In this document: positions 14,744 through 20,175 of the stretch, one piece after another
How the letters are laid out: every line of letters starts with the position of its first letter
How positions within the stretch are numbered: the first letter of the stretch is position 1
DNA from: Asaia bogorensis
Lineage (GTDB): Bacteria > Pseudomonadota > Alphaproteobacteria > CACIAM-22H2
Length of the DNA: 64,000 bases
Direction: 5' to 3'
NCBI GenBank assembly: GCA_945901855.1
Contig: CAMDLT010000014.1
Span: 1-64,000, forward strand
Made by a program: the position numbers and the translations under genes
The notes under the pieces: generated by a model
What the model saw: the letters and a program-made list of their open reading frames with translations, nothing else
The model's database searches: none
What the model was told of the DNA's origin: nothing

Positions 14744-16129
14744 ATGCGTTTGCTTTCCGCTTTTTTGGTTCTTTTGCTCGCACTCCCCGCCGCCGCGCAG
14801 ACGCGCGCGGTGCCGGAATCGCGTGCGCAAGTGCAATTGTCGTTTGCCCCCGTCGTCAAACGCGCGGCGCCGGCCGTGGTGAACGTTACGACCCGGCGCG
14901 TGCAGCGCACGGTGGCCTCGCCGTTTGCCAACGATCCCACCTTCCAGCGCTTTTTCGGCAACCAGTTTCCCGGCATGGGCGAGCGCGTGCAGAATTCGCT
15001 GGGCTCGGGCGTCATCGTCGATCCGGCGGGCCTCATCGTCACCAATTTCCACGTCATCCGCGGCGCCGAGGAGATCATCGTCAGCCTTGCCGACCGGCGC
15101 GAATTCGAAGCAAGCGTGGTCCGCGCCGACGAGCGCACCGACCTTGCCGTGCTGCGCATCGATGCGGGCAGCGAGGCGTTGCCCACGCTCGAATTCAAGG
15201 ATTCCGACGATCTGGAAGTGGGCGACATCGTGCTCGCCATCGGCAACCCGTTCGGGGTCGGGCAGACGGTCACGCAGGGCATCGTTTCGGCCGTGGCGCG
15301 CACGATGGCGGGCATCGCCGATTTCCGGTTTTTCATCCAGACCGATGCCGCGATCAATCCGGGCAACTCCGGGGGCGCGCTCGTCACGCTCGACGGCAAG
15401 CTGATCGGCATCAATACCGCCATTTTTTCGCGCGACGGCGGCTCGAACGGCATCGGGTTTGCCGTTCCCGCCAACATGGTGCAGACGGTTGTGGCGTCGG
15501 TCGCGTCGGGCGGGCGGCTTGTGCGCGCGTGGCTGGGCGCATCGGGCCAGAGCGTGACCAACGAGCTTGCGCCCGGCTTGGGGCTCGCGCGCCCGGCTGG
15601 GGTTGCGATTACGGACATCTATCCGGGCGGGCCTGCCGAGCGCGCGGGCTTGCGGCGGGGCGATGTCGTGCTCGGCATCGAAGGGCGGGAGGTCAACGAC
15701 AACGACGCGCTGCGCTTTCGCATCGCAACGCAGCCGATCGGCCAAAACGTGCGCTTGACTGTCTGGCGCGGCGGGCGCGAAAGCACGGTGACGGCCGCGC
15801 TGACGGCGCCCATCGAAGTGCCGCCGCGCGACGTAACGCCCCTGCGCGGCCAGCATCCGTTTTCGGGCGCGACGCTTGCGAATCTGTCGCCGGCGTTCGT
15901 CGAGGAACTCGGGCTCGATTTGCCGCCGCGCGGCGTGATCGTCACCGAAGTGCGGCGCGGCAGTGCGGCCGCCCAATTGCGCCTGCAACCGGGCGATCTG
16001 GTTTTGCGCATCAACGAGCGCGCGATCGCCACCGTCGAAGACGCGCGCCGTGCCGTGCAAACGCCGCTGCCTTGGCGCTTGCAGGTCCAGCGCGGCGGGC
16101 GCGTGCTCAACACCACGATCGGCGGATGA
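14744..16129 (+). CDS. Deg-type periplasmic serine protease with PDZ domains
   Basis: 461 residues. Residues 1-18 form a signal peptide ending AAAQ. The trypsin-like domain (about 33-250) has the triad His103 (TNFHV), Asp133 (RTDLA) and Ser209 (GNSGG). Two PDZ domains follow at about 255-350 and 370-455. The protein resembles DegP/DegQ/MucD and would degrade misfolded envelope proteins. It lacks the long Q-loop of E. coli DegP. A TATACT box at 14732-14737 with GTGACG 18 bp upstream could be its promoter, which would leave almost no leader. It overlaps rarA by four bases. Confidence 0.93.
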   Translation: MRLLSAFLVLLLALPAAAQTRAVPESRAQVQLSFAPVVKRAAPAVVNVTTRRVQRTVASPFANDPTFQRFFGNQFPGMGERVQNSLGSGVIVDPAGLIVTNFHVIRGAEEIIVSLADRREFEASVVRADERTDLAVLRIDAGSEALPTLEFKDSDDLEVGDIVLAIGNPFGVGQTVTQGIVSAVARTMAGIADFRFFIQTDAAINPGNSGGALVTLDGKLIGINTAIFSRDGGSNGIGFAVPANMVQTVVASVASGGRLVRAWLGASGQSVTNELAPGLGLARPAGVAITDIYPGGPAERAGLRRGDVVLGIEGREVNDNDALRFRIATQPIGQNVRLTVWRGGRESTVTAALTAPIEVPPRDVTPLRGQHPFSGATLANLSPAFVEELGLDLPPRGVIVTEVRRGSAAAQLRLQPGDLVLRINERAIATVEDARRAVQTPLPWRLQVQRGGRVLNTTIGG

Positions 16130-17445
16130 GTTCGCCCCGCAAACCGGCGGCGCCCGGCCTGTTCGCGGCCCCGCCAAGCGACCGGCCCTTGGCCGAACGC
16201 CTGCGCCCGGCCGTGTTGGCCGAGGTCGTGGGCCAAGACCATCTGCTGGCGGGCGACGGGCCGCTTGCGCGCATGCTCGCGAACAGGAAGCTTGCCTCGA
16301 TCGTGCTGTGGGGTCCGCCGGGCTGCGGCAAGACGACGATCGCGCGCCTGTTGGCCGATGCGGTTGGGCTCGAATTTGTCGCGCTGTCGGCGGTGTTTTC
16401 GGGCGTCGCCGATTTGCGCAAGGCGTTTGCCGAAGCGGTCGAGCGCCGCTTGATGGGCAAAGCCACGCTGCTGTTCGTCGACGAGATCCACCGCTTCAAT
16501 CGCGGCCAGCAGGACGGCTTCCTGCCCTATGTCGAAGACGGCACGGTGACGCTGGTGGGGGCCACGACCGAAAACCCGTCGTTCGAAATCAACGCGGCGC
16601 TGCTGTCGCGCTGCCAGGTGCTGGTCCTCAAACGTTTGGACGAAGCCAGGCTCGGCGCTCTGCTGGCGAAGGCCGAGGCCGAGCACGGCGCCAAGCTGCC
16701 CTTGACGGACGATGCGCGTGTCGCCCTCGTAGCGATGGCCGACGGCGACGGGCGCTACCTCTACAATCTTGCCGAGCAGGTGTTCCAGCATCGCGGCGCA
16801 GCCCTCGATACGAGCGCGCTCGTGCAGGCGGTGCAGCGGCGAGCACCCCTTTACGACAAGGCGCAGGAGGGGCACTACAACCTCATCTCCGCATTGCACA
16901 AATCGATGCGCGGGTCCGATGCGGATGCGGCGCTCTATTGGCTTGCGCGCATGCTGGCGGGCGGCGAAACGCCGCTTTACATCGTGCGTCGTCTCGTACG
17001 GTTTGCGGTCGAGGATGTGGGGCTTGCCGATCCGCAAGCGGTCCAGCAGGCGCTGGCGGCCAAGGACGCTTACGATTTTCTGGGCTCGCCCGAGGGCGAA
17101 TTGGCGATCGCGCAGGCCGTGCTCTATCTTGCGTGCGCGCCCAAATCGAACGCGGGCTACGTGGCAAGCAAAGCCGCGATGGCGGCGGCCAAGGAGACGG
17201 GCTCGCTGATGCCGCCGATGCATATTCTGAATGCGCCGACGGCGCTGATGAAAGAGCTTGGCTACGGCAAGGGCTATGCCTATGACCACGACGCGCCCGA
17301 TGCGTTTTCGGGCCAGAACTATTTCCCCGACCAAATGCCGCGTCCGGTTTTCTACGACCCGCCCGAACGCGGCTTCGAGCGCGAAATCCGCAAACGCCTG
17401 GACTATTGGGCCAAGCGGCGCGCTCAGCGCATGGGGGACGAGTGA
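16126..17445 (+). CDS. rarA: Replication-associated recombination protein A (AAA+ ATPase)
   Basis: 439 residues starting at ATG 16126, overlapping the protease stop as ATGA. The Walker A motif GPPGCGKTT is at about residues 63-71 and the Walker B motif LLFVDEIHRF at about 115-124. LAERLRP and VGQDHL near the N-terminus and the C-terminal YFPDQM segment are typical of the RarA/MgsA/WRNIP1 family. RarA acts at stalled replication forks as a tetramer related to clamp loaders. It is immediately upstream of the foreign-looking nucleotidyltransferase cassette. Confidence 0.95.
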   Translation: MSSPRKPAAPGLFAAPPSDRPLAERLRPAVLAEVVGQDHLLAGDGPLARMLANRKLASIVLWGPPGCGKTTIARLLADAVGLEFVALSAVFSGVADLRKAFAEAVERRLMGKATLLFVDEIHRFNRGQQDGFLPYVEDGTVTLVGATTENPSFEINAALLSRCQVLVLKRLDEARLGALLAKAEAEHGAKLPLTDDARVALVAMADGDGRYLYNLAEQVFQHRGAALDTSALVQAVQRRAPLYDKAQEGHYNLISALHKSMRGSDADAALYWLARMLAGGETPLYIVRRLVRFAVEDVGLADPQAVQQALAAKDAYDFLGSPEGELAIAQAVLYLACAPKSNAGYVASKAAMAAAKETGSLMPPMHILNAPTALMKELGYGKGYAYDHDAPDAFSGQNYFPDQMPRPVFYDPPERGFEREIRKRLDYWAKRRAQRMGDE

Positions 17446-17490
17446 TCCACATGGCCATTAGGGTGCGCATATGCATTTTTTCGAATCCGG

Positions 17491-17519
17491 TTGCAGATAA
17501 TCTTTAGGTGTTAGATCAT
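17491..17519 (+). promoter_or_regulatory. Possible promoter of the nucleotidyltransferase cassette
   Basis: TTGCAG (17491-17496) and GATCAT (17514-17519) are spaced by 17 bp in the AT-richer 108-bp gap after rarA. Each box matches only part of the consensus (three and four of six positions). A start near 17526 would leave a leader of about 28 nt before ATG 17554. No terminator was seen between rarA and this point, so read-through is also possible. Confidence 0.28.
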
Positions 17520-17553
17520 TGGTTTTTTCCCGTGTAACGATGAGGGGCCGAGG

Positions 17554-18552
17554 ATGATGGGTTTGTTGGAGCAACGCTCCGCCTATTGCGATGAACGCCT
17601 TGGGAAGCTTCGGTCAGCGATTTCGAGGAATGCGAATATCCCGAACCTCGAAGACTTGTGTGTCTACGTGACAGGATCGTTCGGACGCGGCGAGGCGTCG
17701 CCGCACTCCGATCTCGATCTGTTTTTTCTCAATCGCGGTACCGTGTCGAAGCATGGGCTGACGAACCGCGACAAAGCGCTGCTCTTTGCCGACCTCATCC
17801 GTGTCGTCGAAGATCTTTGCTTCCCGCCTTTGACCAAAGGCGGCGCCTACCTGAAAATCCACTATCTTGATGACGTTTTGGATTCGATCGGCAGCCAGAC
17901 CGAAGATTTTGAAAATTCATTTACGGCCAGAATGCTTTTGTTAACTGAAAGCACCGCCGTTTTGAACGCGCCGATGTTTGACGCGGCGCTGCGCAAGCTC
18001 ATTGATGTCTATTTTCGCGACTATCACGACCACGAAAAAGAGTTTCGGCCGATTTTCCTCATCAACGATATAGTTCGGTATTGGAAAACAATGTGCATGA
18101 ACTACGAGCACAATCGGCACCGGACCGATGACGCTGCCAACGACGACCCTGCCGGGATTCAGCGCAACAAGAACAAGGCGCACACCAAAAATTTCAAACT
18201 GAAATTCAGTCGGATGCTGACTTGTTTTTCTTTCGTTATCGCGTGTGTGGCTCAGGGGCGAGGAATCGGTCCGGAGAACGTTGAAAATATTGCGAGAAAG
18301 ACCCCTTTGCAGCGGCTCGACTGGGTTGCTCAACAGAGGCCTCAAGCTAAAGAAATGGTCGAAATGGCGAAGGCAGAGTATGCTTGGTTTCTGGAAAAGA
18401 CAGGATGCGACTCGGGTGAGCTTGAGGCGTGGATTTCGAATCGGGAAGTTAGGAATACCGCCTTCGACAAGGGTCGCACATTCGGCGCGACAATTTACCG
18501 TCTGCTGAGCAGCGTTACCGAACCAGACACTTTGAGGTACCTTGTCGTATGA
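17554..18552 (+). CDS. Polymerase-beta-fold nucleotidyltransferase (GlnD/CD-NTase-like)
   Basis: 332 residues. The signature hG-[S]-x(n)-D-x-D of the superfamily is clear: GSFGRGE at 41-47 and HSDLDLFF at 51-58, giving metal-ligand candidates Asp53 and Asp55. The third acidic residue is not obvious. The region 170-190 (NDIVRYWKTMCMNYE) probably packs as a helical C-terminal domain. It would transfer a nucleotide to an unknown acceptor (nucleotide, RNA or protein). Base composition is visibly more AT-rich than its neighbours and arginine codons are less biased, suggesting acquisition. The stop overlaps the next gene by four bases. Either ATG 17554 or 17557 may be used. The specific function is unknown. 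Confidence 0.8.
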   Translation: MMGLLEQRSAYCDERLGKLRSAISRNANIPNLEDLCVYVTGSFGRGEASPHSDLDLFFLNRGTVSKHGLTNRDKALLFADLIRVVEDLCFPPLTKGGAYLKIHYLDDVLDSIGSQTEDFENSFTARMLLLTESTAVLNAPMFDAALRKLIDVYFRDYHDHEKEFRPIFLINDIVRYWKTMCMNYEHNRHRTDDAANDDPAGIQRNKNKAHTKNFKLKFSRMLTCFSFVIACVAQGRGIGPENVENIARKTPLQRLDWVAQQRPQAKEMVEMAKAEYAWFLEKTGCDSGELEAWISNREVRNTAFDKGRTFGATIYRLLSSVTEPDTLRYLVV

Positions 18553-19163
18553 GCAACGTCGTGCGCTTCTTCAATACGGCATATTTTGGCGGCAGCGACA
18601 TTGTGCGACTGCTCAACGCGATCATCTATGTTGCCAATCCGACCGAGAAAGACGCTGCACACATCACGTTTCAGGGCCCCTTCTTCTCGCCGTCCGAGGC
18701 GCAGGACATGCTGCCTGCCGACGTGGCGGGCGCGCCGGTTGGCGTCGATGGAACAGCTAACTTCTTCGACTGCGGGCAGCAGACGATTTTTTTGAAATGC
18801 CATTCGCCAAAGATATTCAAACACTGGCACAAACCGGATGGGTTTCTGACCCAGCACATTACGCTCTATGATGGCCGCCAAGCGGATTTCGCCACGCGTC
18901 TTTTCGACCGTATCCGTCGGTACCATTGGTCGTTTGAACTTTACGTCGATCATGTAGCGACAGTGCGCTCGGTCAAGGGCGAGTACCGGCCGGGCTTGTT
19001 CAATTCGATTGAGCGCCCGCTGATCGAGGAACTCGATGGCACCAAATTCGTCCATACGCGTTTTGTTGAAATGACCGATGTCGATCGACTGGATTTGATC
19101 GAGCGGATGTGCGCGCTGCTGTTCGCACCGTCCGCCTCTCTCGGTCGCCGAGCGTTGGCGTAA
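18549..19163 (+). CDS. 2H-phosphoesterase-like protein paired with the nucleotidyltransferase
   Basis: 204 residues. Two HxT motifs, AHITFQGP (His38, Thr40) and QHITLYDG (His103, Thr105), lie 65 residues apart, the hallmark arrangement of 2H phosphoesterases such as LigT, 2',3'-cyclic phosphodiesterases, AKAP7-type 2',5'-phosphodiesterases and phage Acb1. The predicted reaction is cleavage of a 2',5' or cyclic phosphodiester. The start ATG overlaps the nucleotidyltransferase stop (ATGA), and the stop is one base before the rluC-like TTG start. The assignment rests on motifs only; overall similarity to a named subfamily was not tested. Confidence 0.6.
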   Translation: MSNVVRFFNTAYFGGSDIVRLLNAIIYVANPTEKDAAHITFQGPFFSPSEAQDMLPADVAGAPVGVDGTANFFDCGQQTIFLKCHSPKIFKHWHKPDGFLTQHITLYDGRQADFATRLFDRIRRYHWSFELYVDHVATVRSVKGEYRPGLFNSIERPLIEELDGTKFVHTRFVEMTDVDRLDLIERMCALLFAPSASLGRRALA

Positions 19164-19164
19164 A

Positions 19165-20175
19165 TTGTCAGGAGTCCAGGAAATCCGCGTCAAGGCGGAC
19201 GATGCGGACCAGCGGCTCGATCGCTGGCTCAAGCGGCGTTTTCCAGCCTTGGGGCAAGGGCGCATCGAGAAGCTGCTGCGCACGGGCCAGATCCGCGTCG
19301 ACGGCAAACGCGCCAAATCGAACCAGCGGCTCGCGCCCGAGCAGGCGATCCGCCTGCCGCCGCATATCGACATGCCCCCGCCCGACGAGCCCGAAGGCGG
19401 CGGCCCGGCCGTGCGCGTGCCGCGCGCGATCTCCAAGGCGGATGCCGAGCTCATCCAATCGTGCGTCATCTACAAGGACGACGACGTGATCGTGCTCAAC
19501 AAACCGCCGGGCCTTGCCGTGCAGGGCGGGACGGGCACCGAGCGCCATATCGACGGCATGCTCGACGCGCTGCAGTTCGACCAGGAGGGCAGGCCCAAGC
19601 TCGTGCATCGCTTGGACCGCGACACGTCGGGCGTGCTGGTGCTGGCGCGCGGGGCGCGCAACGCGCAGCTGCTGGGCGATTCGTTCCGGCACCGCAATGC
19701 CCGCAAAATTTACTGGGCGCTGGTGGTGGGCGCCCCCAAACCCGCGCAAGGCAAGATCGATCTGGCGCTTGCCAAAGAAGCGGGCCCCAGCGGTTACGAG
19801 CGCGTGGCGCCCGACGCGGACGACGGCAAACGCGCGGTCACGCTGTTCTCAACGGTCGAGGTTGCGGGCGACCGCGCGGCATGGCTTGCTTTGTGGCCGC
19901 GCACGGGCCGCACCCATCAGCTGCGCGTGCATTGCGCCGAAGCGCTGAAGACGCCGGTCGTCGGCGACGGCAAATATGGCGGTACCGAAGCAAGGCTGGT
20001 CGGCGACGGGCTTTCGGCCAAGCTGCATCTGCACGCGCGCTCGATCGAAATTCCGCATCCGTCGGGCGACGGGTTGCTCAAAGTTCGCGCGCCACTGCCC
20101 TTGCACATGAAAAAAACCTGGGAATTTTTTGGCTTCGACGTCGATGCGCGCACGGACCCGTTCCCGCGCGACTAA
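19165..20175 (+). CDS. rluC: RluC/RluD-type pseudouridine synthase
   Basis: 336 residues from TTG 19165, chosen because MSGVQ is the usual N-terminus of alphaproteobacterial RluC-like proteins. An S4-like RNA-binding domain is at about 14-70 (RLDRWLKRRFP, GQIRVDGKR). The catalytic domain carries HRLDRDTSG with catalytic Asp151, then RTHQLRVHC. It would isomerise uridines in 23S rRNA. No good ribosome binding site precedes it, so translation may depend on coupling to the gene ending at 19163. Confidence 0.9.
   Translation: MSGVQEIRVKADDADQRLDRWLKRRFPALGQGRIEKLLRTGQIRVDGKRAKSNQRLAPEQAIRLPPHIDMPPPDEPEGGGPAVRVPRAISKADAELIQSCVIYKDDDVIVLNKPPGLAVQGGTGTERHIDGMLDALQFDQEGRPKLVHRLDRDTSGVLVLARGARNAQLLGDSFRHRNARKIYWALVVGAPKPAQGKIDLALAKEAGPSGYERVAPDADDGKRAVTLFSTVEVAGDRAAWLALWPRTGRTHQLRVHCAEALKTPVVGDGKYGGTEARLVGDGLSAKLHLHARSIEIPHPSGDGLLKVRAPLPLHMKKTWEFFGFDVDARTDPFPRD

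Follow-up and report, generated by a model that had tools for sequence, protein, structure and literature searches.

What do a putative maker and a putative breaker of phosphodiester bonds do side by side in one small transcription unit? The question is raised by two genes in the window, by which we mean the whole 64,000-nucleotide stretch of Asaia bogorensis DNA that was analysed. Our answer is built up from the insertion site, the two folds, the distribution of the pair and the partners of related enzymes.

Two genes inserted between rarA and rluC

The first gene (17554–18552, plus strand) encodes a nucleotidyltransferase (NTase) of 332 residues, predicted to be AMPylator-like. Its stop codon overlaps by four bases, ATGA, the start of the second (18549–19163, plus strand), which encodes a predicted 2H phosphoesterase of 204 residues. 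Comparison with sibling species delimited an inserted segment of about 1.72 kb (17446–19164), of which these two genes are the only cargo. On its left, a gene for a rarA/mgsA-like AAA ATPase (16126–17445, plus strand, start approximate, within an open reading frame from 15529 to 17445) ends at 17445. On its right, a gene for an rluC-like pseudouridine synthase (19165–20175, plus strand) begins at 19165. Both flanking genes lie outside the module.

In 7 sibling species there is no insert and rarA runs straight into rluC, with an ATGA overlap, and the C-terminal 250 residues of the window rarA product are 82–87% identical to those of siblings in which rarA touches rluC. The segment lies exactly at this junction in the window genome and in the metagenome-assembled genome of Telmatospirillum sp. 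M043S1SP1A48QC, and the start codon of rluC is TTG where the segment is inserted. The pair was not found in the remaining 9 genomes of the genus. It has moved horizontally, as a clean 1.7-kb insertion. Between the window genome and the Telmatospirillum carrier, dN/dS was 0.065 for the NTase and 0.155 for the 2H gene, values that indicate purifying selection on both.

The preliminary description of this locus had correctly given the open reading frames, the ATGA coupling, the GSFGRGE and D53/D55 residues of the NTase and the spacing of 65 residues between the HxT motifs of its partner. It had also stated that no effector gene is adjacent, and indeed no linked CBASS effector gene was found at the window locus, the insert consisting of two genes only. 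With nothing else encoded in the segment, the two-gene form either suffices by itself or acts on components of the host or of an invader.

The NTase resembles protein-AMPylating enzymes

The window NTase scored 25.8 bits against the Pfam NTP_transf_2 model, for a cut-off of 21, and its AlphaFold model (pLDDT 88) has an N-terminal Pol-beta palm followed by a C-terminal helical bundle, which confirms the polymerase-beta-type assignment made earlier. Within the GSFGRGE segment and beyond, G41, D53 and D55 are arranged as G41-x11-D53-x-D55, the GX11DXD motif reported for SidM/DrrA and GlnE (PMC8605245). The residues of this motif are kept in 77–78 of 78 NTase relatives: G41, R45, E47, S52 and D55 never vary, and there is one exception each at S42 and D53. 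No variation occurs at E132, D172, R175 or K215 either, and only D or E is found at the position corresponding to E117.

The model matched DrrA (Z 16.0, 263 residues) and each half of GlnE (Z 14.2 and 13.9) over its whole length, palm and helical bundle included, these matches spanning 263–270 residues. The MNT antitoxin (Z 8.6) and AadA (Z 8.0) came next, and the MNT match is limited to the palm, 114 residues. Hailong HalB, AadA and Cid1 stand further down the fold lists with low TM-scores, and their likeness probably amounts to the shared palm only. Among the matches listed, the modelled NTase is thus closest in full-length fold to the protein-AMPylating enzymes DrrA and GlnE, and it is predicted to be AMPylator-like. 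Neither OAS nor a CD-NTase appeared among the listed fold matches; no SMODS, cGAS-like or OAS Pfam model matched the window proteins at E up to 10, nor did any PADLOC CBASS model. The parallels first drawn with OAS and AKAP7, and with Acb1 and CBASS, are therefore functional analogies only, since the closest of the listed folds are those of DrrA and GlnE.

By profile, the NTase matched the PADLOC model PDC-M70A (6.5e-22, 76 bits, residues 31–234), for which a rhizobial member scores 487 bits. Its motif region also matched GlnD models weakly (2.4e-6), with a GlnD score of 26 bits for a cut-off of 519. Neither an HD eraser domain nor ACT domains were found in the NTase or in the 2H protein.

The second protein has a 2H fold

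The HxT motifs of the second protein are found at residues 38 and 103. Among shuffles of its sequence, 6.5% yielded two HxT/S motifs 50–85 residues apart, so the motif by itself is weak and evidence from the family was needed. H38, T40, H103 and T105 proved invariant in 19 aligned homologues, which are 16–72% identical to the window protein. With the Pfam 2'-5' RNA ligase model, the window protein remained under the cut-off (15.6 bits for 27); other members exceed it (34.9 bits for L045), and 14 of 19 matched the model at E up to 0.1.

The top Foldseek and VIA matches of the AlphaFold model (pLDDT 90) are 2H enzymes, the best having a Z of 11.7 over 144 residues. In the PDB, these were Arabidopsis cyclic phosphodiesterase (CPDase, 11.7), YjcG (11.2) and Acb1 (9.2), followed by AKAP18 (7.9) and LigT (7.4), bearing in mind that a Z under 8 may reflect a common arrangement only. 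The poxvirus cGAMP phosphodiesterase is also among the fold relatives. By its model, the second protein is a true 2H fold; this assignment is firm, and the activity is predicted. The invariant motifs and the predicted fold bear out what had been proposed from the two HxT motifs.

A strictly paired and rare family

The NTase alignment, used to scan genome contigs, recovered 79 loci. In 18 loci of the clade nearest to the window, the NTase gene is immediately followed by a 2H gene. Together with locus L161 and the window, the 2H gene directly follows the NTase gene in 20 of the 20 loci that have one, in seven phyla, and overlap by ATGA is common among them; the linkage expected from the window was found throughout. 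Of the two results that would have spoken against the preliminary description, a second protein lacking the 2H fold and homologues that are unlinked, neither was obtained. In 18 host genomes the 2H family occurred solely within the pair, one genome having a second, weak 2H match. In a careful tree, the 2H-associated NTases group together with a support of 100/100.

The family is rare. Close members were present in 2 of 385 alphaproteobacterial genomes and in 1 of 345 genomes of the class to which L043 belongs, and few were gained by family-level surveys for further members. No plasmid copy of the 2H gene was found, and no description of the pair in the literature searched. A phage counter-defence gene is unlikely, because viral contigs yielded only one HD-type NTase and nothing closely related to the 2H protein, and none of the phage records encodes the NTase.

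Related NTases carry other phosphodiesterase-fold partners

A profile for each type of partner was run on all loci, and 94 loci were classified. The partner was a 2H protein in 20, an HD protein in 46, a DEDD-type exonuclease in 5 and a TIM barrel in 17, and none was found in 6. Each NTase has a single kind of partner or none, never two kinds. The 2H gene lies downstream of the NTase gene, the HD and DEDD-type 3'-5' exonuclease genes upstream, and the TIM-barrel gene is mostly adjacent. Partner label follows the NTase tree, with 8 changes for five labels in a quick tree; shuffling the labels gave 38.5, and not one of 200 shuffles was as low. That sister NTases carry other phosphodiesterase-fold partners supports the idea, put forward from the window sequence, of a maker and a breaker working together.

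By sequence, the HD partners come nearest to dNTPase folds of the EF1143/SAMHD1 type. In Pseudomonas oryzagri (L088:4831-6906), HD and NTase form a single polypeptide of 691 residues. The DEDD-type partner corresponds to the Pfam Rv2179c-like family and to PDB 7t2s (1.3e-20). The TIM-barrel partner is of the AP_endonuc_2 type, endonuclease-IV-like, and is PDC-M70B in PADLOC.

The six NTases with no partner found are L004, which is followed by a histidine phosphatase gene, L071, L089 and L110, which lie at contig ends, L100 and L109. Alone among the NTases, L071 is devoid of the first catalytic aspartate (SGID for SDLD), and it is the one partnerless member of the 2H clade. L056, L058 and L071 had been candidates for NTases of the 2H clade without a 2H gene, and were discarded: the first two have an exonuclease gene upstream, and the third is catalytically broken. 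The position of L058 inside the 2H clade was a long-branch placement; with a trimmed sequence and more members of the exonuclease type, it groups with those, a group whose monophyly has little support (8).

Several observations were made along the way. The Rv2179c-like exonuclease gene directly upstream of the NTase gene in L056, L058 and L162–L164 defines a sister class not labelled before, hosted by Bryobacterales, Myxococcales and relatives of a Methylobacterium genome. A histidine phosphatase gene often comes after the HD-NTase operon (14 loci: L061–L067, L077, L083, L084, L101, L102, L104 and L105), and it may be a third enzyme of the reversal type. An HD-NTase pair is present on a contig classed as viral (L118, IMGVR_UViG_3300035491_000331). 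Finally, the 4.5-kb E. coli plasmid pISHS7_5 (L003, NZ_CP092257.1, 1–4499) has for annotated genes an HD protein, an NTase and rop only; a module of this type was present in 1 of 5426 E. coli genomes.

In larger versions, the 2H domain is fused to restriction or methylation enzymes and to a GNAT domain

In L043, L046 and L049, the 2H domain forms the N-terminus of a protein of 1237–1250 residues. The remainder of the L043 fusion matches a full-length type IIG restriction-methyltransferase (PADLOC, 5.1e-177, residues 198–1229). The 2H domain is fused to a type II methyltransferase in L053 and L054 (1.6e-121 and 2.5e-77); in L047 its fusion partner is a GNAT domain, and a weak PIN match was also obtained. 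None of the fused proteins has lost the 2H histidines. The 2H-IIG operons of L043 and L049 comprise a third gene in the same orientation (L043:10646-11287 and L049:10682-11320), encoding about 213 residues with a D...ECKR pattern and no family match; judging from this pattern, it is possibly a PD-(D/E)xK nuclease.

Among neighbours in the same orientation are a SLATT/DUF4231-like membrane protein with two helices, directly upstream in L046 and below the Pfam cut-off, a patatin in L054 (3.3e-96 with the PADLOC Effector/Phospholipase model) and a membrane protein in L053. Some stand-alone pairs lie near restriction or methylation genes, an EcoEI-like HsdR in L045 and a C5 methylase near L057. 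Downstream in L052 are a tyrosine-phosphatase-like gene and an ADP-ribosylglycohydrolase. Fusions and neighbours point to conflict systems, by association rather than by proof. Adjacent to the 2H-IIG operon of L043 and divergent from it (L043:2630-5755, minus strand), we also observed genes for an AAA_21 (AbiEii-like) ATPase and a 350-residue protein with no Pfam match.

A writer and an eraser of nucleotidyl marks?

The explanation that we tentatively prefer, though we place it not far below an even chance, is a mobile, self-contained nucleotidylation module made of a writer and an eraser, in which the hydrolase undoes the modification made by the NTase and a protein is the likeliest acceptor. 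The NTase would transfer NMP from an NTP to a hydroxyl of its target through a phosphodiester bond, and the 2H enzyme would hydrolyse this same bond and restore the target. Palm NTases make R-O-P(5')-nucleoside bonds, and AKAP7-type 2H enzymes, DEDD exonucleases and the HD domain of GlnD, its uridylyl-removing domain, can break such bonds and release (5'-)NMP; endonuclease IV also cleaves phosphodiesters. Computation provides the two folds, the conserved catalytic residues, the coupling, the mobility, the strict pairing and the replacement of the partner by HD, DEDD-type or TIM proteins. Because a single NTase family is accompanied by one hydrolase at a time, drawn from four unrelated folds, we infer that the hydrolase reverses the NTase product. 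A protein is favoured as acceptor because the fold of the NTase is like that of DrrA and GlnE; as with GlnE, GlnD and DrrA, the target would most likely be a protein, probably one of the host or of an invader in conflict, and the module would then probably serve in defence, for instance against phages. In the larger versions, the eraser would be built into, or placed beside, effectors (type IIG restriction-methylase, methylase, GNAT, SLATT-like two-helix protein, patatin).

In favour of this reading, we count the motif together with the full-length fold, the exclusive partners, the L088 fusion, the broken L071, the histidines kept in fused 2H domains and the low dN/dS. To our knowledge, no 2H enzyme removes NMP from a protein, and none was found in the literature searched, which counts against it, as does the two-gene form, which comes without a target gene. 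The DEDD-type partner fits a nucleic acid or oligonucleotide acceptor at least as well as a protein. On the other side, RNase Z, a nuclease of RNA processing, is a known deAMPylase (PMC12663964).

Two loci, one with a patatin and one with a SLATT-like neighbour, are suggestive of nucleotide-signal systems. The NTase could make a linear or cyclic (oligo)nucleotide as second messenger, and the 2H enzyme degrade it, the effectors acting in trans or being encoded in the larger loci. Acb1, AKAP18 and the poxvirus cGAMP phosphodiesterase among the 2H fold relatives agree with this, and Rv2179c/RNase T-like exonucleases can degrade short oligonucleotides. Most two-gene loci, that of the window included, are nevertheless devoid of an effector, and neither the AMPylator-like fold of the NTase nor its lack of SMODS, cGAS-like or OAS model matches at E up to 10 would be expected, so that we hold a second messenger to be unlikely.

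We find it equally improbable that the pair is a toxin-antitoxin or regulated effector system, which would require one NTase family to silence four unrelated folds. The 2H protein would then be a nuclease-like effector, silenced by the NTase through nucleotidylation, in the manner of MntA on HepT. The MNT antitoxin is the next-best fold match of the NTase, but over 114 residues of palm, compared to more than 260 for DrrA and GlnE, and no HEPN partner is present. What would fit is that the two coupled genes move together without further cargo, that the sister HD and NTase genes are, besides rop, the sole annotated genes of pISHS7_5, that 2H is fused to type IIG restriction enzymes and to the GNAT protein with its weak PIN match, and that nucleases or nucleotide hydrolases occur in all four partner folds.

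Most doubtful is RNA-end editing, in which nucleotide(s) added by the NTase to RNA, for instance at the 3' end of a tRNA, would be removed or healed by the 2H enzyme: 2H (to which Usb1 and CPDase belong), DEDD-type (Rv2179c/RNase T-like) and HD domains are all known from RNA 3'-end enzymes, but fold and GX11DXD motif favour DrrA and GlnE, neither an RNA-binding domain nor an RNA ligase accompanies the pair, and by sequence the HD partners are nearer to dNTPase folds than to the HD of CCA enzymes.

Returning to the writer and eraser, it is possible, with a likelihood that we rate somewhat below even, that these loci form a new class of mobile conflict modules, in which an AMPylator-type NTase has its eraser swapped among 2H, HD, DEDD-type exonuclease and endonuclease-IV-like TIM proteins, the 2H form is built into restriction-modification or effector proteins, and reversible nucleotidylation controls defence. 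If true, this would be the first case of a 2H enzyme that erases nucleotidyl marks, and would connect restriction-modification to reversible nucleotidylation. The strict rule of one NTase and one hydrolase over four unrelated folds makes the substrate of the hydrolase directly testable, on small soluble proteins, and the HD form, with its natural copy on an E. coli plasmid, is easily tested.

Comparison with known systems

No named system fits the NTase-2H pair. This had been anticipated in the preliminary description, and it holds, except that a distant sister of the NTase is already the PADLOC candidate PDC-M70A. The TIM-barrel partner PDC-M70B has no match to the window 2H protein and the PDC-M70 NTase belongs to another clade, so that PDC-M70 was dropped as the same system; no test of its function was found in the literature searched.

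CBASS and OAS-type signalling share with our family an NTase accompanied, in a few large relatives, by patatin or SLATT-like genes of the effector type, whereas for the window pair neither CD-NTase nor OAS domains were matched (Pfam at E up to 10, listed folds), and its locus is devoid of an effector. The type VII toxin-antitoxin MntA/HepT, in which MntA silences HepT, is likewise a coupled NTase and partner with an AMPylation motif (PMC7641770). However, MNT proteins have less than 150 residues, a GSX10DXD motif and a HEPN partner, as opposed to 332 residues, GX11DXD and a 2H partner in the window.

GlnE and DrrA/SidM are alike in the GX11DXD motif and in the fold of the whole NTase (Z 13.9–16.0), yet the window NTase is only about 11–12% identical to them and has a separate 2H partner, when GlnE and DrrA are encoded without one. 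GlnD unites a writer and a phosphodiesterase eraser, as does the sister clade with HD partners, fused once, in L088, in the reverse of the GlnD domain order; the window pair differs by a 2H in place of the HD domain, by its two genes and by the absence of ACT domains. With CPDase, YjcG, LigT, AKAP7 and Acb1, the window 2H protein has in common its fold and the two HxT motifs that lie on strands of it, and it stands apart from these known phosphoesterases as a separate family, with C-terminal helices (residues 149–191) and linkage to an NTase.
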